A DNA stretch of 45,775 nt from Vulcanimicrobiota bacterium (GCA_027459845.1 DAIDGS010000121.1:1-45775); one strand, 5' to 3'; positions 23,122 through 33,583 are shown, numbered from the stretch's first letter. Made by a program: numbers and translations. Notes: generated from the letters alone by a model not told the origin.

Positions 23122-24486
23122 CTAGGGTCGGTGCGTCGCCTCGGGTGCCGGACGCGCAACGGGATAGATCACGTGCGGCGTGATCAAAAAGACGATCTCG
23201 TCGCGCTGATGCGTCGTGGCCTTGTTCTCAAAGAACTTTCCGAGGATTGGAATCTGCGAGAGCCATGGGATCTTCTCGATCGTTTCGCTGCTGACGTCGC
23301 GCATCAAGCCGCCGAACACGATCGTTTGATCGTCGCGTACGCGCAGGGTCGAATCGATCTTGCGACTTGCGACGATCGGATAACCGGTCGACGTGTATCC
23401 GATGAGCTCGCTATAGTCCGGATGCAACTCTGCTGTGACGCTTCCGTCGCTTCCGATGGTAGGCGTCACCTTGAGGTGAACGCCGACGTCGACGAACTGT
23501 ACGTTCTGACCACCAAACACCGACGTACTGAAAACGATTGGATACGTTTCACCGATCGAGAGTTCGGCCGGCTTGTTGTTGAGCGTCACCAGCTTTGGGG
23601 TCGCCAAAATTGACGCGCGTCCCTGACTGATCATCGCATTGAGCCGCACGTTGACCGGAATGCTCCCGCCCGTAAACGCGTACGCGGTCGAGCCCGGAAT
23701 CGGCACGCCGGTGAGATCCATGCCGCCGAACTCAAGCCCGACGTTGCTGCTGTCGTCCTGAGGCGTGACGTCGGCGACTTTGACTTCGAAGAGAACCTGT
23801 GCGCTTGCAACGTCAACCGCGCGTACGACGTTGCGCGCTCGCGCTTGGGCGAGGTCGCTGCCCGTCACCAGCACGGCGTCGAGGTCTTCGTCGGCCAGGA
23901 ACGTGCCCGCCCCGAGCAGGGCCTTGAGCTTGGCCACCATGTCGTCCGGTTTCACGTAGCGCAAGCGGTACGTGACGGTCTTCACGGCGTTGGAACGTCG
24001 CAGTGTCACATCAAGTGCGGCGATCAGGCGCGAGGCCGTGGCGATGGTAGCGTCGTCGCCGGCTATGAGTATCGCGTCGGTCCGCGCATCGGCCACCACC
24101 GAGCGCGCAGCGGGAACCGCCGCGGCAATTTCCTTCGCGATCGCGCCGGCGTTGGCGTGATGGAGAAGGATTACCGCCGTGCGGTCGTCGGTCTTTCCGG
24201 GGCGTGCCGAGATGCGCGTGATCCCGTCGCCGTTATGCAGCACAAGGCGCTCGCTCGCGGCAATCGCGTGCAGCGCCTGTCCGAGCGTGACGCCTTTCAA
24301 GTGCAGCGTGACCCGCTCCCCGGCGACGTCGGTGTCCGCGACGATGTTTCTTCCGGACTGCGCCGCCAGCAGCGTCACCGCTTCGCCGAGGGTACCATCC
24401 ACGATGTCGATTGCGATCGTCCCGGCTGCCGCCGTTCGGGCCGTCAGCGCGAGGCACAGCGCGGCCGCCATCCAGGCGGTCTTCAT
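23122..24486 (-). CDS. pilQ: Type IV pilus secretin (PilQ-like)
   Basis: 454 residues: signal peptide (about 1-21), a short STN/N0-type domain (VDGTLGEAVTLLAAQSGRNIV), one or two N-domain repeats (TYRLRYVKPDDMVAKLKALLG), and the secretin pore domain with GQNVQFVDVGVHLKVTP, VFGGLMRD and the signature IPWLSQIPILGKFFENK. It forms the outer-membrane ring through which the pilus or DNA passes. It lacks AMIN domains and is shorter than classical PilQ (600-900 residues). ATG 24486 overlaps the PilP-like gene as ATGA. It is the last gene of the pilus operon. Confidence 0.93.
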   Translation of the reverse strand: MKTAWMAAALCLALTARTAAAGTIAIDIVDGTLGEAVTLLAAQSGRNIVADTDVAGERVTLHLKGVTLGQALHAIAASERLVLHNGDGITRISARPGKTDDRTAVILLHHANAGAIAKEIAAAVPAARSVVADARTDAILIAGDDATIATASRLIAALDVTLRRSNAVKTVTYRLRYVKPDDMVAKLKALLGAGTFLADEDLDAVLVTGSDLAQARARNVVRAVDVASAQVLFEVKVADVTPQDDSSNVGLEFGGMDLTGVPIPGSTAYAFTGGSIPVNVRLNAMISQGRASILATPKLVTLNNKPAELSIGETYPIVFSTSVFGGQNVQFVDVGVHLKVTPTIGSDGSVTAELHPDYSELIGYTSTGYPIVASRKIDSTLRVRDDQTIVFGGLMRDVSSETIEKIPWLSQIPILGKFFENKATTHQRDEIVFLITPHVIYPVARPAPEATHRP

Positions 24487-24911
24487 GGCCGCCGCTTCGG
24501 CAGGGCAAGCCGCACGTCGCCGAGCACGACGCCCGCAGCGTCGATCCGCCGGACGACCAGACCGGCAAAGGCATCCCCGACCCCGACCACCGCCGCGCTG
24601 TGACCGCGACGCAGCAGCGCGTGGGGTTCGACTCCCAGGATCACTGCCGCCACGACGACCGGGCGTCCCGAGGTTTGCACGGCCAGCGATCGGTTCGGCA
24701 CGAACGGATCGCGCACGCCGCGCAGATCGGGCGGTGGCAACTCGCTCGGTAGCGCCGCCAGCCGAAGCGTTGCCGGAGTCGGCCCCGACAGGCCGACTGC
24801 AGCAACGCGATCGCCTCCCTGAAAGGCCAGCGCGGTCGCCGCGCCGATCGCAATCCCGACCGCCGTGCGCTGCAGCGACCGGCGCTCACGCGTGCGTAGG
24901 CCCGGCATCAT
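24483..24911 (-). CDS. PilP/GspC-like inner-membrane linker protein
   Basis: 142 residues. One N-terminal hydrophobic segment (GIAIGAATALAF) is followed by a Pro-rich part (LPPPDLRGVRDPFVPNRS) and a small beta domain (VVVAAVILGVEPHALLRRGHSAAVVGVGDAFAGLVVRRIDAAGVVL). The 'DPF' plus HR-like beta-domain layout resembles PilP/GspC periplasmic linkers between PilMNO and the secretin. The call rests on layout and position between pilO and pilQ; sequence similarity is weak. ATG 24911 (AAGGAG upstream) overlaps pilO by 26 nt. Confidence 0.7.
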   Translation of the reverse strand: MMPGLRTRERRSLQRTAVGIAIGAATALAFQGGDRVAAVGLSGPTPATLRLAALPSELPPPDLRGVRDPFVPNRSLAVQTSGRPVVVAAVILGVEPHALLRRGHSAAVVGVGDAFAGLVVRRIDAAGVVLGDVRLALPKRRP

Positions 24912-25461
24912 GCCTGTTCTCCTTCCGTAGCAGCATCCTCCGATGGAGAACCCGCGTCTGCACCGTGACCTGCAGGCGTCCCTTACCCGGCGTGCGTTCG
25001 TCGCGAAGGGCGATCGCGGTCACCTCGAGCGGCAAGCGTTTCGAAAGTTCGCCGATGGTCGCGAGCAGGGCCCGGTAGGGACCGCGCATGGAGACCGAAA
25101 AGCCGGCCGATTCGGCGTTCTCCGTCGCGCCCTCGCCGGCGGCGACGTCCGGAGCAACCCGCAGTACCGCAACGCGATGGCGCGCGGCTTGCTCCGTCAG
25201 CGCGCCAATCAGCGCGGCCATCGAGCGCGCCTTGTGAAGTCGGCCAACGCGCACGAGTGCAGCGTCGACCTGCGCCCGCATCGTGCGGATCTGTTTGAGC
25301 TGCTGCGCGACGATACGATCGTGGCGCACCTGAAGGTCTACCGCGGCGATGCGCGCGCGCAGCGTCGCCTGGCGCGCTCGTAGCGGAGCGACGACACCAC
25401 CATAAGCTAGCGCGACTTCAAGCACCACGGCCAACCATGCCGTCCGCACCGCACTCCGCAC
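24886..25461 (-). CDS. pilO: PilO-like pilus alignment protein
   Basis: 191 residues: a short cytoplasmic start, one membrane helix (WLAVVLEVALAYGGVVAPL), a coiled coil (about 30-85) and a ferredoxin-like periplasmic domain ending FSVSMRGPYRALLATIGELSKRLPLEVTAIAL, typical of PilO. PilO pairs with PilN in the inner-membrane platform. The GTG start at 25461 overlaps the pilN stop by one base (TAGTG). Identity comes from architecture and gene order. Confidence 0.82.
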   Translation of the reverse strand: MRSAVRTAWLAVVLEVALAYGGVVAPLRARQATLRARIAAVDLQVRHDRIVAQQLKQIRTMRAQVDAALVRVGRLHKARSMAALIGALTEQAARHRVAVLRVAPDVAAGEGATENAESAGFSVSMRGPYRALLATIGELSKRLPLEVTAIALRDERTPGKGRLQVTVQTRVLHRRMLLRKENRHDAGPTHA

Positions 25462-26018
25462 TAGGGACTCGACCGCTTTTCCAGATGGAGCGAGAATGCA
25501 ATCGGCGCCATCGATGCGACGTTACTCTGCTGCTCGATCGTCTGCAGCGCAATCGAATAGCGGCGTTCGTTGGCTGCGAGCAGTTGAGCAACGTCGTCAA
25601 AATCTAGTGCCTCGCCGCGCACGTCCCATGCATCCCGCGTACCGCCTGCGATGCTCGTGAACCAGGCGCGCGTGCTCGCCGTCGCACCGATCGTCAGAAC
25701 GTCGTCGACGAGCGCGGTTCCGGTCGATCGCGCGGCGCGCAGCCGGCCGACCAGCGAGCGACGCGCCTCGATGCGGGCCAACTCGGCGCGCGCGCGCACC
25801 ACTGCGGCGTCGGTCTGCGCCGCACGCGTGCGCGCCCGGGCGAGTTCGGCTCGGCTAGCCGCGATCTGCGTCAGATCAAGCGCACAGACCAGCACCGTCG
25901 CACCGGCAATCGCACAGGCAACCGTCGCAATGCCTCGCAAGTGCAGAGGAATGCGCATCGTCATCGCATCGACCCAGCGATCGTGCGGTGCGTCGCGCAA
26001 GAAGTTCACACCCGTCAC
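25461..26018 (-). CDS. pilN: PilN-like pilus assembly protein
   Basis: 185 residues. The cytoplasmic N-terminus VNFLRDAPHDRW is a variant of the PilN peptide that docks in PilM. It is followed by a membrane helix (GIATVACAIAGATVLVCALDL), a coiled coil (about 50-95) and a PilN-type C-terminal domain (DDVLTIGATASTRAWFTSI ... SIALQTIEQQ). GTG 26018 forms a GTGA overlap with the pilM stop; the long open frame upstream is a shadow of pilM. Confidence 0.82.
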   Translation of the reverse strand: MTGVNFLRDAPHDRWVDAMTMRIPLHLRGIATVACAIAGATVLVCALDLTQIAASRAELARARTRAAQTDAAVVRARAELARIEARRSLVGRLRAARSTGTALVDDVLTIGATASTRAWFTSIAGGTRDAWDVRGEALDFDDVAQLLAANERRYSIALQTIEQQSNVASMAPIAFSLHLEKRSSP

Positions 26019-26980
26019 CGCAGGTACCCGAGCGCCAACCCGGCAGCCAGCGACCAGTCGGGCGCGGCCGCGCGCACGACATCGTCCGGATAGGTACCGG
26101 TACGTAACACGTCGCCGATCGGGTGCTCGACCCGCGCCAGGGTCCCGGCCGCAAGCTCTGCGGCGAGTCGATCGAGCCGCGATGCGTTGCCGACCAGCGC
26201 AATGCTGCGCCGCGATGGATCGCTCCACAGCGCGCGCACGAGCGACCCGATGCGCTCGACAAAAGCTCGGCGCGCGTCCAGGCCCGCGCCGGCCGTCCCG
26301 ACCACGCGCTTGCGTGCTTCGGCCAACGCGTCCGGAACCGCCAGGTCGCGGGCGATGGCCGCAGTGATCGCATTGCCCGCGCCTTCCGGTACTGCAAACG
26401 AACGCGGCACCGGCTCCCCGAACTCGTGGAGCGTTGCCCCTGTCGCTCCCATGTCCAACACCGCGTCGTAGCCCGGAAAGACGCGGCGGTACGCGTACGC
26501 GACGTGATCGACGACCGCGACGCGCACTTTGGCGCAGCGCGTAATCCTCAGGATACGCTGGAGTGCCGCGCGCGCCGCAATGGCCAGCACACAGTTGCGG
26601 CGGACGGCGTCGAGCGGGTACACCCGCACCACACGTGCTTGGCGCGCCCAGCGCGACCACCGGTCGCTCTCGAACTCGGCCGCACGTCGACGGGCGTGCC
26701 AACTCATCGCCGGAAACGCAACCGGGTGCAACGTTGCGTCGGCATCGGCCATGCCTAAGACGCACTTCACTCGGCGAGCCGCCAGTTCGTCGACGAGTTG
26801 TTCGAGGACGGTACCGAGCGCATCGGCGTCCGCATCGGTGCCTTGCAGTATGCCCACGGGCAGGTCGCGCACTGCGACTGCGCCCAAACGCGTGCGCCCG
26901 GCGCACCGTTCGAGTCGCACGACGCGAACGCGGGTACTCCCGCAGTCGATCCCCAACCGACAACGCGCGGTTCCGATCAT
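26015..26980 (-). CDS. pilM: PilM-like actin-fold pilus protein
   Basis: 321 residues with the actin-like ATPase layout: phosphate-1 loop LGIDCGSTRVRVVRLE (about 9-24), middle AAEFESDRW, phosphate-2-like loop AVLDMGATGATLHEFG and adenosine loop IALVGNASRLDRLAAEL. PilM sits in the cytoplasm and binds the PilN tail. ATG 26980 overlaps the stop of the prepilin peptidase gene as ATGA. The sequence is divergent (SHS2-like conservation is weak), but position before pilN/pilO supports the call. Confidence 0.85.
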   Translation of the reverse strand: MIGTARCRLGIDCGSTRVRVVRLERCAGRTRLGAVAVRDLPVGILQGTDADADALGTVLEQLVDELAARRVKCVLGMADADATLHPVAFPAMSWHARRRAAEFESDRWSRWARQARVVRVYPLDAVRRNCVLAIAARAALQRILRITRCAKVRVAVVDHVAYAYRRVFPGYDAVLDMGATGATLHEFGEPVPRSFAVPEGAGNAITAAIARDLAVPDALAEARKRVVGTAGAGLDARRAFVERIGSLVRALWSDPSRRSIALVGNASRLDRLAAELAAGTLARVEHPIGDVLRTGTYPDDVVRAAAPDWSLAAGLALGYLR

Positions 26981-27555
26981 ACCGGCACTCCGCCGGCAAC
27001 CAGCACGGCACCGAGCGCCAGCCACGGCCCAAAGGGCACGCTATCGCCGCGCCGACGTCGGCCGGTCCATAAGCCGATCGCCGCCGCGCTGCCACCCAAC
27101 GCAAACGCCCACGTCAGCATCTCTAGCGCACCGAAGCCCCCCAAACCAAGCGAGATCGCCGCCGCCAGTTTGACGTCGCCGAGTCCAAGCGCGCGACCGC
27201 GACTGATCAAGACGAGCACGAGTAGCGGTAGGCCGCCGATGAGTGCGCCGAGCAGGGCCGGGCCGGCCGCGCCGCCCAGCGCGGCAACCGCAAGGACGGC
27301 ACACGCGCCGACGCTCACCACCTCATCGAAGACGTAGCCGTACCGTGCGTCGCCGGCTCCGGCCACCACGGCCAAAGCGATCGCCGGCACGCGTGTCCAC
27401 CCAGGCCGCGCGAGGAGCACGATCGCGCCACTCGCGACTAGCGCCGCCACGATGAGTGACGCGTCCTGCGCGACCGCCAAACCGGCACGTCGCGCGCGAA
27501 TCCAGGAAATCGCTGCCAACGCCACGACGCAGAGCACCGCGGCACACACCTTCAC
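26977..27555 (-). CDS. Prepilin peptidase (A24 family) without methylase domain
   Basis: 192 residues, nearly all membrane helices. The two catalytic Asp are seen in AGAGDARYGYVFDEV and in the GxGD motif ALGLGDVKLAAAISLG. The protein lacks the N-terminal cytoplasmic CxxC zinc/methyltransferase domain of bifunctional PilD enzymes, so it may only cleave (as FlaK/TadV/CpaA types do). It probably processes the prepilin of this operon. GTG 27555 overlaps the upstream TPR-like stop as GTGA. Confidence 0.85.
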   Translation of the reverse strand: MKVCAAVLCVVALAAISWIRARRAGLAVAQDASLIVAALVASGAIVLLARPGWTRVPAIALAVVAGAGDARYGYVFDEVVSVGACAVLAVAALGGAAGPALLGALIGGLPLLVLVLISRGRALGLGDVKLAAAISLGLGGFGALEMLTWAFALGGSAAAIGLWTGRRRRGDSVPFGPWLALGAVLVAGGVPV

Positions 27556-28097
27556 TGCGCCGACTCGCGCACGCGGCGTAACCCGTCCAGCGCCGGAACG
27601 AACCCCGGTGCCAGCGCAAGGGTCTCGCGCCACAGCGCTACCGCGCGTCGCGTACGCCCCAAGCGCTGGGCGCAAAATCCGGCAAACGCCAGCGCGCGAG
27701 GGTCGCGCGCGGCACGACCGACCCGCGCGAAATCGCGGAGCGCTACGCGGAAGTCGCCGAGCTTGCGTTCGAGCAAAGCCCGATCCATGCGAATTGCACT
27801 ATTTGCGGGATCGGCGCGTAGTGTCAGCCCGAGCGCTTCGCGCGCCTCGCGCCACAAGGCTGGGCGGCGCTGCGACATCGCCAGAAACGCGAAGCGATCG
27901 GCGGCGACCGGATTGCGATCGTCAAACCCTAGTGCGCGCCGGTAGAGCCCCAGGGCGGTACTCGGACGGCCGGCATAGAGTTGCCCGTCGCCACTGCTGA
28001 CGATTGCATCGGAGATCGGGCCGCGCAGGAAGAGCGCTGCGGCCGCAATCCCGATGAACGCGAGCAGGACGCGGCGGCACGGCGAAAGCTCGTTCAT
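27552..28097 (-). CDS. TPR-like protein in the pilus operon
   Basis: 181 residues: a membrane anchor (VLLAFIGIAAAALFL, about 9-24) followed by helical repeats resembling tetratricopeptide units (GQLYAGRPSTALGLYRRALGFDDRNP; ALLERKLGDFRVALRDFARVG; GFCAQRLGRTRRAVALWRETLALAPGFVPAL). This suggests a periplasmic scaffold analogous to PilF/Tgl-type pilotins, but it lacks a lipobox Cys, so the role is uncertain. ATG 28097 overlaps the CcdA-like stop as ATGA. Confidence 0.75.
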   Translation of the reverse strand: MNELSPCRRVLLAFIGIAAAALFLRGPISDAIVSSGDGQLYAGRPSTALGLYRRALGFDDRNPVAADRFAFLAMSQRRPALWREAREALGLTLRADPANSAIRMDRALLERKLGDFRVALRDFARVGRAARDPRALAFAGFCAQRLGRTRRAVALWRETLALAPGFVPALDGLRRVRESAQ

Positions 28098-28741
28098 GCG
28101 ATCGCGACGAACAGGAGGCCCAGCGCGACCATCAACGCACCCGAGACCACCGCGAGCGCCGACTGCAAGTTGCGCCCGGCAAGGTATCGCGCGGCCGGTT
28201 GCGCGACGCGCCCCACGAGCGCCAGCGGAAACACGTGGCCAAGAGCGAAGGCGCCGACGGCAACCGCGCCGTAGGTCGGGTCGTTCGAGGCCCCAGCGGC
28301 GGCAGCGATCGCCAGCACCACCGGCGTGCAGCACGGCGCTCCCACGACACCCAGCAGACCGCCGAACAGAAAGGCGCCGCCAAGCGATGTACGGTCGCCC
28401 AAACACCTGACGCGTTCAGACTGTACCAAGGTCCGCACGCCCAGCGCACACAGCATCGCGCCGAGGGCGGCATCGATCGCCGGCGCGTTACCGCTTACGC
28501 GTACCGCCCACGCACCGGCCGTTCCGAAAATCACGTACCAGCCGACGATTCCGGCGCACAATGCCGCAATACGCAGCGCACGCTCCCGGCCGCCCGGCTC
28601 CGCAGCGAGCGAAATCGTCGCGAGCGCGCGCGGTGCCACGCACGGACCGCTACTGCCAAGCAACCCCGCGCAGAAGGTCACTGCCGGCATCCAGGGGCTC
28701 CGACCGCCTGCCGCTCGAATCGCGGCGTCGATCACGTCCAC
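28094..28741 (-). CDS. CcdA/DsbD-like thiol electron transporter in the pilus operon
   Basis: About 215 residues with six membrane segments. Two inverted signatures carry the reactive cysteines: GLLGSSGPCVAPRAL in the first half and GVVGAPCCTPVVLAI in the second. These match the SPC..P and PC..P motifs of CcdA/DsbD-beta proteins that move electrons from cytoplasmic thioredoxin to the periplasm. GTG 28741, 4 nt after the pilin stop, is preferred; GTG 28735 is possible. It sits directly after the pilin gene, whose product has two mature Cys. No thioredoxin-like partner is nearby. Confidence 0.82.
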   Translation of the reverse strand: MDVIDAAIRAAGGRSPWMPAVTFCAGLLGSSGPCVAPRALATISLAAEPGGRERALRIAALCAGIVGWYVIFGTAGAWAVRVSGNAPAIDAALGAMLCALGVRTLVQSERVRCLGDRTSLGGAFLFGGLLGVVGAPCCTPVVLAIAAAAGASNDPTYGAVAVGAFALGHVFPLALVGRVAQPAARYLAGRNLQSALAVVSGALMVALGLLFVAIA

Positions 28742-28745
28742 CGCT

Positions 28746-29219
28746 CTACGAACCCGAGGCGGCCGCAAAGCCGCCGTTCGACGAGTACTGAATGTGCGTT
28801 AACGTCGTACCGGGTGAGATGTTTTGCAGCGTTCCGGGATCGTGGCTTCCCGGGCACACGATCGTATACGCTGCGGTTGCGGTATCGCCATTGACGACCG
28901 TGTAGGTATAGTAGACACCGGGGCCCGCAACCGGATCGACCGGCGTCTGCTTCAGATACGCCGCCAGTTCGGCGTTCGCGGAGTTCGCGCTTCCACTATC
29001 CGGATAGCGATCGTTGTCGCTCTCATAGAGCTCCAGCGCAGTCGCAATCTCCTTGAGGTTGGCCTCGCAGGCTGCCGTTTGTGCCTGCGCGCGAGCACGC
29101 ATGAAGTTTGGAACCAGAATCCCGACCAGGATCGCGATAATCGCCACCACGATCATCATTTCGATGAGCGTGAATCCACGCTCCGAGTTTCGTGGTGCTA
29201 CCGGCCCCCTCGTCGTCAT
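28746..29219 (-). CDS. Type IV prepilin / GspG-like pseudopilin
   Basis: 157 residues. The prepilin signature is complete: RNSERG | FTLIEMMIVVAIIAILVGILVP, with Gly at -1, Phe at +1 and Glu at +5, a 17-18 residue leader and the hydrophobic N-helix. The mature part contains LKEIATALELYESDNDRYPDSG, as in GspG/major pseudopilins, and exactly two Cys (AACEAN and TIVCPGSHD). It is the only pilin gene of the operon; minor pilins must be elsewhere if they exist. The ATG at 29217-29219 lacks a clear ribosome-binding site, 22 nt after the sigma-factor stop. Confidence 0.94.
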   Translation of the reverse strand: MTTRGPVAPRNSERGFTLIEMMIVVAIIAILVGILVPNFMRARAQAQTAACEANLKEIATALELYESDNDRYPDSGSANSANAELAAYLKQTPVDPVAGPGVYYTYTVVNGDTATAAYTIVCPGSHDPGTLQNISPGTTLTHIQYSSNGGFAAASGS

Positions 29220-29241
29220 AGCGCTATCGGTGCCCAGAACC

Positions 29242-29946
29242 TTAGCGCTCGGGACGCGCAATCGTGGCGAGACGCGCCAACGCACTGCGGTGGAGCCGCG
29301 TCAGGTGCCGTCGCGAATAGCCAATTCGTGCCGCCAACTCGCCGATCGGAATGTTTTCGATATAAAGCGCCCGCAAGATGCGACGCTCCAGCTCGGATAG
29401 GCGAGCGACCGCGGCCTGGATTGTGAGCCGATCGACCGCCAGCGAGATTTCGTCGTCGGCGACGCTGCTGGAGCGAACGCGCGGTGACTCCAGCGGCAAC
29501 CCGTAGGCGCGCGCCCGATACTCGCGTAACTCGGCGCGCTCGCGTTCCCCAACGTTGACGTAGCGCGCGATGTCGCTCTCCGACGGCTCCCGGCCGAGCA
29601 GCACCCACAGTTCCCGTTCGGCGGTCAGCCAGCGACGCTCCAGCTCGCGCAGACGTCGCGGCGCTCGCACCAAGCGCTCCGCGTCGCGCACGTGGTGCAT
29701 CAACTCGCCGAGCACCAGCACCCATGCGTACGCTTCAAACGGCGCGTCAGCCCGGCCGTCATAGCGATCGACGGCTTTGATCAACCCTATCGCGGCGACC
29801 TGCTCGAGATCGGCCCGGTCGACGCCGCGACGCAAAAACTTGCGTGCGGCACGCTTGCACAGATAGCCATACTCTTCGATCACCCCATCGCGATCCTCGG
29901 CGCGACGCTCGCGCGCCCATAGGGCCAAACGTGACGTAGCATTCAT
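29242..29946 (-). CDS. Sigma-70 family factor (group 3-like) inside the pilus operon
   Basis: 234 residues. Region 2 is clear (EEYGYLCKRAARKFLRRG, DLEQVAAIGLIKAVDRYDG, FEAYAWVLVLGELMHHVRD), region 3 is short (WVLLGREPSESDIARYVNV), and region 4 ends in a helix-turn-helix (LSELERRILRALYIENIPIGELAARIGYSRRHLTRLHRSALARL). The overall size and the 'GE[IL]..H.RD' element resemble SigB/SigF-type group 3 factors. ATG 29946 overlaps the pilC stop as ATGA. A sigma factor coupled to pilus genes could control this or another regulon; no anti-sigma gene is adjacent. Confidence 0.9.
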   Translation of the reverse strand: MNATSRLALWARERRAEDRDGVIEEYGYLCKRAARKFLRRGVDRADLEQVAAIGLIKAVDRYDGRADAPFEAYAWVLVLGELMHHVRDAERLVRAPRRLRELERRWLTAERELWVLLGREPSESDIARYVNVGERERAELREYRARAYGLPLESPRVRSSSVADDEISLAVDRLTIQAAVARLSELERRILRALYIENIPIGELAARIGYSRRHLTRLHRSALARLATIARPER

Positions 29947-31160
29947 CGCAAACTCCCAATCATGGAATAAAGCGGCACGATCACCGACCCGACCACTATC
30001 GCGATCGCTCCGCCAAGTAGACAGATGAGCAAAGGTTCGAGCGAGCTGCTTACCACCGACAGCGCCGCATCGAGATCGTCTTCGTAGTACGTGCATAGAC
30101 GCAACATCATGCTATCTAAGGACCCGCTCGCTTCGCCGGCGTGCGTCAGTTGCATAAACGACGGCGTAAAGATGCGACACGCTCCGAACGCTTGACTCAC
30201 CGAGTCGCCGCGTGCGATCGCGGCCGCTGCTGCCTGAAGCGCGCGGCGCACGTGCTCGTTGCCGACCGTATCGATCGCTCCCGTTAACGCATCCGGCAAT
30301 GCGACGCCCCCGCGCAGCAAGGTGCCGAACGTGCGCGCGAACCGCGCGACCGCAGCCATGGTCACGATCCGGCCGACCACCGGCACCCTTCGAAGGACCT
30401 CGTCGAGCGCGAAACGCACCGCCGAGTGGCGCGCCGCGGCACATGTCGCGAGCACCAGGCCTAGACTCCCAATCAGCATTGCACTCAGGCCGCGCGGATC
30501 GTGCAGCACGAGCGCAATGCGCAGTAGAGCGCGGGTCGTTATTGGAAGCGGCACGCGCAGTTGCGTGAAGAGCGATGCGAATGCCGGGAGCGTCGAGCCC
30601 ACCACAAAGCCCAGCAGTCCTACCGAAGCGACGGCGACGATCGCCGGGTAGGTCAGCGCGACCGCGAAGCGGCGCCGCATCGCGCGGCGGCGTTCGTCGA
30701 GCGCTGCGGCTTCGGCTAGCGCCTCGTCTAGGGCGCCACGTCGTTCGCCCGCGCGCAGCAATGCCAACGTGACCTCCGAGAACTCCTCGGGATGGCGTTC
30801 CGCGGCGGCCGCAAAGCTATTGCCACGCTCGACTTCGGCGCGGAGCGACGCGAGCGTTTCGCGCAGCCCTTCGTCCTTCGTTTCGTCGGCAACGGCAGTG
30901 AGTGCCGCGCAGATCCCGACGCCCGCGCCTACCAGGGTAGCAAGCGAACGAAAGTGCCCCTGCCGGTCCGCCCGTCGCACGCGCGCCCGCCGAATAAGTC
31001 CCCGCAAGCGGCCCGCCGCCGTACGCGCACTTCGCAACGAGGTGACGAACAGCGCCCGCGTACGCAAACTTGCGAGAGCTTCATCGGCCGACTCTGAGCG
31101 CACGCAGCCGCGAACGATGCTGCCGTCACCCGCATAGGCACGGTACTCGAACGTCGTCAC
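29943..31160 (-). CDS. pilC: Type IV pilus inner-membrane platform protein PilC/GspF
   Basis: 405 residues with the two-fold GspF architecture. An N-terminal piece (FEYRAYAGDGSIVRGCVRS) is followed by the first cytoplasmic domain (HFRSLATLVGAGVGICAALTAVADE ... ALLRAGERRGALDEALAEAA), two membrane helices, a second domain (FARTFGTLLRGGVALPDALTGAI ... LTHAGEASGSLDSMML) and a last helix. It is the platform on which PilB/PilT act. The GTG at 31158-31160 overlaps the pilT stop as GTGA. Confidence 0.95.
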   Translation of the reverse strand: MTTFEYRAYAGDGSIVRGCVRSESADEALASLRTRALFVTSLRSARTAAGRLRGLIRRARVRRADRQGHFRSLATLVGAGVGICAALTAVADETKDEGLRETLASLRAEVERGNSFAAAAERHPEEFSEVTLALLRAGERRGALDEALAEAAALDERRRAMRRRFAVALTYPAIVAVASVGLLGFVVGSTLPAFASLFTQLRVPLPITTRALLRIALVLHDPRGLSAMLIGSLGLVLATCAAARHSAVRFALDEVLRRVPVVGRIVTMAAVARFARTFGTLLRGGVALPDALTGAIDTVGNEHVRRALQAAAAAIARGDSVSQAFGACRIFTPSFMQLTHAGEASGSLDSMMLRLCTYYEDDLDAALSVVSSSLEPLLICLLGGAIAIVVGSVIVPLYSMIGSLR

Positions 31161-32170
31161 GACGCACGAACCTCCGCGTCGACTGCACCCGCGGCGCGCA
31201 GCTCTTCTAGGTGCTGTTCGAAGAGTTGCATACCGTACTGGCGGCCCATGGCGATCGCATTGCGGAGCTGATGGGTGCGACCGTCGCGAATCAGATTCCG
31301 AATCGCGTCCGTTGCCACGAGAACCTCGGCGACCGGCCGACGGCCGCGACCGCCGCGCCGAACGACCAGCCGCTGACACACGACGGCCTCGACCACCTCG
31401 GCAAGCTGGGCGCGAATCATGGCGTGGAGGTCACCGGCGAACGCGTGGACGACCCGCTCGACGCTCTGGGTCGCATCGCCGGTGTGCAGGGTGGCCATGA
31501 CCAGGTGTCCGGTTTCGGCGGCGATCAGCGCCGTGTGAATGTCGGCGGCGGTGCGCAGTTCGCCGACCACGATGACGTCCGGGTCGCAGCGTAGCGCGCC
31601 AACCAGCGCACTCGCCAGATCGTCGGCGTCAGCTCCCAACTCGCGTTGTGAGATCAACGACAGGCCATCGCCGTAATAGTACTCGATCGGATCTTCGATC
31701 GTGATGATGCGCCGCGCACGCGTGCGGTTGATCCGATCGACGATCGCCGCCAACGTGGTAGACTTGCCGCTCCCGGTCGCGCCCGCAAAAAGCATTAATC
31801 CCCGTTCGCGGCCGCTGAGTTGTTCGAGCACGGGCGGCAGTTCGAGCGCCTCGAGCGTCGGAACGGTCGTGCCGAGCAGGCGGATCGCGAGCGCCGGAAC
31901 GCCTTGCGTGGAAAAGCCGTGAACGCGCAGATCCCCCGCGCTCGCGCGACGAACCGAGATCGTGCGCTCGGCAACCGCTTCGCTCCCGAAGAGCTCGGCA
32001 CCGAGCGCGCGCAGTTCGTCGGGCGACACCGCCCGATCCCCAAAGGCTTGCAGCGATCCATCGACCCGCAGCATCGGCGGACGCCGTGCTGCGAGATGCA
32101 CGTCGGATGCGCCGCGCGCGCGAGCGGCGCTCAAGATGTCATCGAGCCGGATCGAGGCGAGCCCGGTCAA
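31157..32170 (-). CDS. pilT: Type IV pilus retraction ATPase PilT
   Basis: About 337 residues. Walker A is GATGSGKSTTLAAIVD, the Asp box is ITIEDPIEYYYGD, Walker B is DPDVIVVGELRT and the His box is HLVMATLHTGDA. Length and sequence fit PilT, the motor that depolymerises pili for twitching or DNA uptake. TTG 32170 is chosen because it overlaps the pilB stop as TTGA and has GGGGAG 9 nt before it; GTG 32176 is an alternative. It is co-expressed with pilB. Confidence 0.93.
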   Translation of the reverse strand: MTGLASIRLDDILSAARARGASDVHLAARRPPMLRVDGSLQAFGDRAVSPDELRALGAELFGSEAVAERTISVRRASAGDLRVHGFSTQGVPALAIRLLGTTVPTLEALELPPVLEQLSGRERGLMLFAGATGSGKSTTLAAIVDRINRTRARRIITIEDPIEYYYGDGLSLISQRELGADADDLASALVGALRCDPDVIVVGELRTAADIHTALIAAETGHLVMATLHTGDATQSVERVVHAFAGDLHAMIRAQLAEVVEAVVCQRLVVRRGGRGRRPVAEVLVATDAIRNLIRDGRTHQLRNAIAMGRQYGMQLFEQHLEELRAAGAVDAEVRAS

Positions 32171-33351
32171 GCGCACGCACTCCCCAGCACCCGCTCCACC
32201 TCATCGGCGCTCGTCACTCCCGCCGCGACCAGGACGCGCGCCGGTTCGCATACCGGCCGGTAACCGCAGGTGCGAGCGAGGGCAAGCAGACGTTCGCGAT
32301 CGGCCTCGTGGGCGATTGCCCGACGAACCTCCGGTGTGACCGAGAGCATTTCGAAGACGCCAATGCGGCCGAAATACCCCTGCCCGGCGCAGTTCGAACA
32401 CGCGTCCATCGGGGCGCGCTCACCGCGGCGACACTGCGGACAGATGCGTCGCAGCAGGCGCTGCCCGACCACCGCGTTGAGCGCACAACTCACGTGGCTA
32501 CGCGCAAGTCCGAGGTCGCCGAGGCGCGCCAGCGCATCGAGTGCCGAGGCGCTGTGTAACGTCGTCACGACGGTCAATCCGCACAGCGCCGCGCCGAGCG
32601 CGGTCGCGGCGGTCTCCGGATCGCGCATCTCGCCGACCAGCACCGCATTCGGATCGCTGCGCAACAGGCCGCGTAACGCCGCGGCGAATCCAAGTCCGAC
32701 GCGCACGTTGACCTGAACCTGCGCCACGCCGGGCAGCCGAACCTCGACCGGGTCTTCGACGCTGCACACGTGTTCCGCGACCAGGTCGCGCTGCAGCATT
32801 GCGGCGTAGGCAGTCGTCGTCTTACCGCTGCCGGTCGGCCCGCACACCACCACGAAACCGGAGCGGGAGAGGACGGCAGCGCGAAACGCCGCGCCGGTCG
32901 CCTCGTCCATGCCCAACGCGCGGCAATTCGGCACGCCGCGCGTGCGATCGAGCAGCCGCAGCACCAGCTTTTCGCCCTCGATCGTCGGCAGCGACGCCAC
33001 GCGGATATCGACCGCCCCGTGAATCGTCTGGACGGTATGGCTTCCGTCCTGCGGCAGACGCCGATCGGTGATGTCCATGCCGGCCAGCAACTTGATGCGC
33101 GAGAGCACCCGCGCGTACACGTCGGCATCCAGTTGGGCCGTCTCGCGCAGCACGCCGTCGATCCGCTGGCGCACGCACCCGCCGTCGCCGCGCGGCTCCA
33201 GATGGACGTCCGACGCGCGCCGCTCGATGGCGTGTGCGAGAAGGGCATCGGCCGCGCGGACCGCCGGCGCATCGTCGCGCCGCGCCGACGGAAGCTCCCA
33301 GGCGCGCGGCAGCGCCTCCCCTCGAGCGTCGATCTCCTGCGATAGAGCCAT
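32167..33351 (-). CDS. pilB: Type IV pilus assembly ATPase PilB/GspE
   Basis: 394 residues: a short N-terminus in place of the usual MshEN domain, then DVHLEPRGDGGCVRQRIDGVL (N2 domain), Walker A GPTGSGKTTTAYAAML near residue 172, SVEDPVEVRLPG, Walker B LVGEMRDPETA, the His box and a four-cysteine zinc site CPQC ... CSNC near the C-terminus. It powers pilus extension. The missing N-terminal c-di-GMP-binding-type MshEN domain is notable. ATG 33351 (GGAGAGG upstream) is the first gene of the 13-gene operon. Confidence 0.94.
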   Translation of the reverse strand: MALSQEIDARGEALPRAWELPSARRDDAPAVRAADALLAHAIERRASDVHLEPRGDGGCVRQRIDGVLRETAQLDADVYARVLSRIKLLAGMDITDRRLPQDGSHTVQTIHGAVDIRVASLPTIEGEKLVLRLLDRTRGVPNCRALGMDEATGAAFRAAVLSRSGFVVVCGPTGSGKTTTAYAAMLQRDLVAEHVCSVEDPVEVRLPGVAQVQVNVRVGLGFAAALRGLLRSDPNAVLVGEMRDPETAATALGAALCGLTVVTTLHSASALDALARLGDLGLARSHVSCALNAVVGQRLLRRICPQCRRGERAPMDACSNCAGQGYFGRIGVFEMLSVTPEVRRAIAHEADRERLLALARTCGYRPVCEPARVLVAAGVTSADEVERVLGSACA

Positions 33352-33416
33352 ACCCGACCTCTCCACAGCGACCATACTGCGGCGTCAAACCAAGCAAGCC
33401 GACGCCTTGTTGGGAA

Positions 33417-33446
33417 CGTATATCACGAGCGATTCGGGCGCGGCAA
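33417..33446 (-). promoter_or_regulatory. Candidate promoter of the pilus operon
   Basis: On the minus strand TTGCCG (33441-33446) and TATACG (33417-33422) are separated by 18 nt, a 4/6 and 4/6 match to sigma-70 boxes. The predicted transcript start is near 33410, giving a leader of about 60 nt before pilB. It lies in the 232-nt gap between thyX and pilB (33352-33583), which otherwise holds nothing recognisable. A promoter for the operon's own sigma factor could equally be there. Confidence 0.35.
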
Positions 33447-33583
33447 GCCCCCACCGCCGACCGGCGCGAAAGTTGTCCTCGGCGGCACGGGTGCGGGCAC
33501 CACGCCAAGGCCCTCTGCCGAGTGGCACGTGGCGAACGAGCCCGCCGGTGACGCGGCGAGCTACGGGACGATGCGGGCGGCGG

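Follow-up and report, generated by a model that had tools for sequence, protein, structure and literature searches.

What is a sigma factor gene doing inside a type IV pilus operon? The question is raised by a 45,775-nucleotide stretch of DNA (hereafter the window), which is contig C121 of a 2.7 Mb, 94% complete assembly (GCA_027459845.1; genome G000) from a soil-dwelling bacterium in the Eremiobacterota, a phylum little studied so far. Thirteen minus-strand genes run there from pilB, beginning at 33351, to pilQ, ending at 23122, and the fourth of them (29242..29946, minus strand) encodes a SigB/SigF-type sigma factor. We consider it likely that this is a type IVa-like pilus operon with a dedicated sigma factor, which would drive the prepilin genes from the promoter-like element GTCC-N16-GGGCAC. 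If so, the element provides a sequence rule for locating pilin genes in a phylum of which very few species have been cultured, and the operon times its motors before its fibre by carrying its own sigma factor. In the open-access literature searched, we found no description of a sigma factor encoded within the type IV pilus operons of this phylum.

The element lies at the junction between sigma and pilA. Sigma–pilA junctions align on GGGCAC, with GTCC, GTCA, GTCG or GTCT 16 nucleotides upstream; in the window, the predicted sigma-dependent pilA promoter (29230..29255, minus strand) lies across the sigma stop codon. The strict N16 form is present in 20 of 33 junctions and the form GTCN-N15..17-GGG[CAT]A[CT] in 24, against an expectation of 0.3 in first-order Markov shuffles (500 shuffles, maximum 4); elsewhere in these operons, the element occurs at 2 of 230 junctions, and never in its strict form. 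A coding constraint does not account for it, because the stop codon slides past boxes that stay at a fixed distance—from 69 nucleotides downstream to 60 nucleotides upstream of the first box—and the element of sister-family and outer-class loci lies entirely past the sigma stop codon. The first-pass annotation had taken the thirteen genes as a single operon, open to refutation by internal promoters; given this conserved element, a pilin promoter driven by sigma is likely to exist within the operon, and the single-transcript reading probably falls. As a separate possibility, GGGCAC was considered as the -24 box of a sigma54 promoter and rejected, since the aligned relatives that were checked show no GC at -12 (by eye).

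The element also marks prepilin genes away from the operon. Exact GTCC-N16-GGGCAC has 8 copies in the window genome (3 for the reversed control), of which one is that before pilA; two of the eight stand 10–12 nucleotides before the start codons of the genome's only two prepilin genes, with a chance probability of ~8e-9. Two of four exact copies are at prepilin genes in another genome (G109), and where pilA is far from sigma (hundreds of kilobases away or on another contig) GGGCAC is kept in 6 of 6 cases, with the exact GTCC-N16 in G088. Most minor prepilin genes in other genomes have GGCAC some 33–49 nucleotides before the cleavage motif. The second prepilin-like gene of the window genome (L161; G000:C4:2254-2367) is a large one, a 786-amino-acid open frame with a SERGFTLVE signal, located behind a Sir2-like gene and with the exact element 10 nucleotides before its GTG start; it is a candidate tip or minor pilin. 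The single pilin of the earlier annotation consequently stands for the operon and not for the genome, as this second gene lies on another contig (G000:C4:2254).

The sigma factor has Sigma70_r2 and Sigma70_r4 domains over cut-off, and its best family is SigB/F/G (TIGR02980, E 7e-39), yet it stays under the curated cut-off of that model (133.8 vs 234 bits); its close named relatives are from metagenome-assembled genomes of Candidatus Eremiobacterota. In gene order, sigma adjoins pilC across the family, the order and the class, usually directly before pilA; the sister family, the outer class and a single deep family of the phylum all have it behind pilC. A tree built from 53 sigma proteins groups the pilus-linked copies from the family and order in a single clade (Shimodaira–Hasegawa-like approximate likelihood ratio test [SH-aLRT] support 100), next to the outer-class copies and separate from a better-conserved SigB paralogue; the placement of the lone deep-family copy is not firm. 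Among 57 family genomes at least 90% complete, a sigma orthologue is found in 36 of 37 that carry PilT vs 12 of 20 that do not (Fisher P 5e-4, uncorrected for kinship). One clade (L048, L051, L062, L072) has sigma relocated upstream of pilB; its loci carry a lytic-transglycosylase-like open reading frame (by eye) between sigma and the downstream pilB, and their pilins show a different cysteine pattern.

Promoters of SigB-family sigma factors offer a comparison. In Streptomyces they follow GTTT(NN)-N14-GGGTAT, with mapped -10 boxes that include GGGCAC, GGGCAT and GGGAAC (PMC8346170), and the SigF promoter is GTTT-N14-19-GGGTA (PMC4694148); more generally, GTTTNN-N12-14-GGGxAx, which equals GTTT-N14-16-GGG, has a near-invariant GGG and A (PMC8346170; PMC4694148). 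The spacing and -10 of our element agree with these promoters, and recognition by the pilus sigma is predicted. The resemblance to general-stress SigB/SigF factors with an RsbV-RsbW switch extends to family, the GGGxA -10 and the 16-nucleotide spacing to the first four -35 bases; unlike in those systems, the -35 is GTCC instead of GTTT, and no anti-sigma gene was found adjoining the pilus sigma. The canonical arrangement sits elsewhere in the window genome: the paralogue (L105, G000:C180) has RsbV-type and RsbW-type genes directly upstream, the only linked RsbW type that we found, and this rsbV-rsbW-sigB order is conserved in the family. Because the paralogue operon carries a different candidate promoter, GTTTAC-N14-GGGAAA, the comparison favours assigning the GTCC class to the pilus sigma. 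We do not claim that sigma region 4.2 co-varies with the -35 box; the GCAT of genus g37 would fit, but GTCA is retained in L066, whose region 4.2 is similar.

A precedent exists in cyanobacteria, where SigF of Synechocystis and Nostoc punctiforme transcribes pilA directly but few other pilus genes, the Nostoc regulon being very small (PMC7690835, PMC6495340). Both systems involve a group-3 SigB/F-type sigma with the major pilin gene as target—predicted, in our case, from sequence. Unlike cyanobacterial SigF, the sigma factor here is encoded inside the pilus operon, immediately before pilA; the promoter it is predicted to read is GTCC-N16-GGGCAC, and some lineages have kept sigma after losing the pilus. 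If the proposal holds, it extends the SigF–pilin link to a distant phylum, and it can be tested in Vulcanimicrobium alpinum.

How might such an operon work? A housekeeping-type promoter upstream of pilB, where a sigma70-like TTGCCG-N18-TATACG is visible by eye (33417..33446, minus strand; TTGNNN-N17-TATNNNATAA in relatives), would transcribe pilB-pilT-pilC-sigma. The 4-nucleotide overlaps would couple translation, such that sigma is made once the motors and platform have been made. Polymerase loaded with sigma may then fire the element at the sigma stop codon to produce a second, strong transcript that starts at pilA, and may also act on the copy before the unlinked large prepilin gene. The order would be the machine first and the fibre subunits, in bulk, second. 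A further exact copy of the element lies upstream of pilB on the opposite strand and points away from it (33475..33500, plus strand); the strict form recurs there in 14 of 37 loci vs 0.26 expected, and in the window it runs antisense towards thyX, with no obvious product within the window. The nearby sequence GGACATTAAGG is near single-copy and found mainly at pilB; we dismissed it as a separate activator site, since it contains the reverse complement of the GTCC of this opposite-strand element.

Natural losses of the pilus offer another view of the sigma factor. All 18 genomes of the sister genus g5 are without PilT; nevertheless 14 have a full sigma gene (51–60% identity to the window sigma) and one more has a contig-end fragment, with sigma in its old slot between thyX and aroC in the loci that were read. 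Two pilus-less genomes outside g5 (G107, G078) also carry sigma, and no prepilin genes were found in these two or in the three g5 genomes checked (G042, G050, G051). The sigma genes of pilus-less genomes are nested at several positions of the tree with ordinary branch lengths. A decayed locus in G077 (77% complete; L085), with sigma, degenerate pilM and pilP and a weak pilQ only, looks like an intermediate of operon loss.

The start of the g5 sigma gene suggests how the loss took place. It is preceded by TTGCGC-N17-TATAAC and begins GAGGTTGGGTGTGGCTCT, which recalls the pilB leader and start of the window, GAGGTCGGGTATGGCTCT (33344..33361, minus strand). An 18-mer pattern search allowing two mismatches finds this leader once per genome where present—at pilB in pilus-bearing G000, G098 and G109, and at sigma in pilus-less G037, G038, G040, G042, G050 and G053—apart from a weak extra match in G037 and an unrelated weak match in G108. 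We rejected a generic ribosome-binding motif, the 18-mer being single in each genome save for the weak extra copy in G037. The simplest reading of these sequences is that a deletion in g5 placed sigma behind the pilus promoter and the pilB leader.

Because sigma survives in g5 and at least two other pilus-less lineages, it probably has a second job beyond the pilus, and the natural deletions, if read correctly, indicate such a role. Sigma is not indispensable, as G082, G089, G092, G096 and G099–G101 have lost it along with the pilus. In several pilus-less genomes the opposite-strand element points to a divergent gene, which may be the reason sigma is retained; other g5 genomes are without it. 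A membrane protein gene is divergent from the g5 sigma at L146:1540-2982 and L038:8239-9727, and that of G038 begins right after a sigma-type element. A wide regulon in pilus-less genomes did not emerge: exact GTCC-N16-GGGCAC matches are few and, the G038 divergent gene aside, those read do not share a downstream gene. We give roughly even chances to the combined proposal, in which sigma would run a prepilin regulon together with a pilus-independent programme, the g5 operon collapsed onto sigma with the pilB promoter and leader, and in some species the element has gained a new target, a divergent membrane-protein gene; if true, this would be a natural case of regulatory rewiring after the loss of a machine.

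The same data can be read without a dedicated pilus sigma. GTCC-N16-GGGCAC could be an ordinary transcription-factor site, with sigma70 transcribing the prepilin genes and sigma acting on unrelated targets; the reversed element stands some 30 bp ahead of the sigma70-like promoter of pilB, where activators classically bind, and sigma persists in genomes without a pilin. We find this unlikely, however: in the window genome the element ends 10–12 nucleotides before the pilin starts, leaving no space for a downstream promoter, its spacing varies from 15 to 17 as promoter boxes do, it shares its GGGxA core and spacing with SigB-family promoters (PMC8346170), and a SigB-family gene adjoins it. Alternatively, sigma could be a passenger—a general-stress SigB copy lodged in the operon with no action on the pilus—as its retention in three lineages without a pilus and the missing anti-sigma neighbour would allow. 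This is improbable given the skew of sigma towards PilT-bearing genomes, a linkage maintained across the whole class, the promoter-like element at prepilin genes, and the existence of a separate, better-conserved SigB with RsbV and RsbW. Against the dedicated pilus sigma itself, several observations must be counted. The consensus was derived from the very junctions it describes, and its independent tests are the unlinked prepilin and distant pilA genes only; 9 of 33 junctions are without the searched form (two of the nine have GTCC-N16-TGGCAC), pilA is not preceded by the element in the clade whose sigma gene stands ahead of pilB, and the -35 of g37 is GCAT, not GTCC (by eye). In addition, the leader before the start codon is very short, which would make the transcripts nearly leaderless, and the opposite-strand element upstream of pilB is unexplained by the model.

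The function of the pilus itself invites a further alternative, as the first-pass annotation took the locus to be compatible with a competence or specialised pilus. A DNA-uptake role would suit the short secretin, the one pilin in the operon, a sub-threshold ComP_DUS match of that pilin and the ComEC encoded in the window genome. We nonetheless regard it as rather unlikely. The pilus and ComEC are uncoupled, because most relatives encode ComEC, both those with the pilus and those without it, and ComEC outlasts the pilus in 9 of 10 near-complete g5 genomes; the features once cited (peptidase, short secretin and pilB traits) do not discriminate and differ among relatives with the same operon; and PilT is present. 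V. alpinum WC8-2, a cultured member of the phylum with type IV pili and phototactic motility (PMC9758169), is probably a relative in the same family and moves by type IV pili. A type II secretion system is not indicated either, with PilT present and PilB under the GspE cut-off (358 vs 630 bits). By its gene content, the block codes for the core of an ordinary type IV pilus, type IVa-like, including the retraction ATPase PilT. The near-complete minimal machine described earlier is supported, and it is the only one in this genome, which has two strong T2SSE matches (pilB and pilT) and two prepilin genes.

All thirteen genes of the annotated one-direction operon are present, in the order pilB, pilT, pilC, sigma, pilin, ccdA, TPR, peptidase, pilM, pilN, pilO, pilP-like and pilQ. 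Since this order (with the peptidase as pilD) is repeated in dozens of genomes, the arrangement is not due to chance; the flanks in relatives are often thyX/ftsZ/ftsA and aroC/aroK. The junctions, taken from the sequence, match the earlier description exactly: 10 of 12 overlap, nine by 1–4 nucleotides and one by 26, and gaps flank the pilin gene only. Four-nucleotide overlaps join pilB/pilT (TTGA), pilT/pilC (GTGA), pilC/sigma (ATGA), ccdA/TPR (ATGA), TPR/peptidase (GTGA), peptidase/pilM (ATGA), pilM/pilN (GTGA) and pilP/pilQ (ATGA); pilN/pilO share one nucleotide (TAGTG) and pilO/pilP share 26, while the gaps measure 22 nucleotides (sigma/pilin) and 4 nucleotides (pilin/ccdA).

The window proteins were searched against Pfam and NCBIfam profiles; the window coordinates given for them below are on the minus strand. 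The extension ATPase gene pilB (32167..33351) matches PF00437 (T2SSE) at E 8e-101, with PilB and GspE as nearest PDB chains. It falls short of the curated PilB model TIGR02538 (348.8 bits, cut-off 675.7), its N-terminal domain being missing. The lack of MshEN had been remarked upon earlier and holds in the window and several relatives, but it is no special mark, as many relatives with the same operon keep MshEN; pilB without MshEN is, on this comparison, a lineage trait. The retraction ATPase gene pilT (31157..32170, TTG start) exceeds the TIGR01420 cut-off (351.4 vs 319.1 bits) and matches PDB PilT at E 9e-74, and pilC (29943..31160) encodes the inner-membrane platform (PF00482, T2SSF, E 1e-50). 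PilB and PilC are full T2SSE and T2SSF proteins under the equivalog cut-offs of both type IV pili and type II secretion systems. The prepilin peptidase (A24; 26977..27555) is slightly sub-threshold (PF01478, E 2e-5) and has no N-terminal methylase domain (no PF06750 match), and a TPR protein (27552..28097) matches PF07719 at E 3e-7.

Downstream, pilM (26015..26980) is slightly sub-threshold (PF11104, E 1e-5), and the PilN, PilO and PilP families are not recognised in the window copies by these profiles. For pilN (25461..26018), 9 of 11 aligned relatives match PF05137 (best E 1e-12); for the pilO or type II protein M-like gene (24886..25461), relatives match T2SSM_b in 4 of 9 cases (5e-6) and PilO in 2 of 9, so that this position is closer to protein M. 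The pilP-like gene (24483..24911) is named by position only: the window copy has no family and relatives no firm one, although they keep an RDPF motif. The short secretin gene pilQ (23122..24486) matches TIGR02517 (1e-51), TIGR02515 (3e-48) and PDB PilQ (E 3e-32), with PilQ and GspD as nearest solved structures. Compared with known type IVa operons (pilB-pilT-pilC, pilM-pilN-pilO-pilP-pilQ), the core parts, their order and the retraction ATPase are alike; unlike in them, the genes here form a single overlapping block that also includes sigma, ccdA and TPR genes, the secretin is short, and the PilO/PilP-like proteins are closer to proteins M and C of type II secretion.

The pilin gene pilA (28746..29219, minus strand) encodes a class III (N_methyl) type IV prepilin over cut-off (PF07963, E 8e-10), with cysteines at mature positions 36 and 107. 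Beside it is a gene for a CcdA/DsbD-TM-like membrane thiol conduit (28094..28741, minus strand; PF02683, E 9e-5, sub-threshold at 22.2 vs 27.1 bits), whose product has two Cys-Pro motifs, SGPCVAP and APCCTP. In all 26 distinct loci with ccdA the pilin has Cys36 and a cysteine at 107–116. In other clades, loci that lack ccdA mostly encode pilins with different cysteine patterns. This suggests a thiol step on the pilin, although shared descent confounds the pattern. Finally, a GGDEF protein gene on another contig of the window genome (L170:1501-2634; G000:C12; PF00990, E 8e-31) has its ATG 19 nucleotides past an exact GTCC-N16-GGGCAC, and is a possible third member of the regulon.

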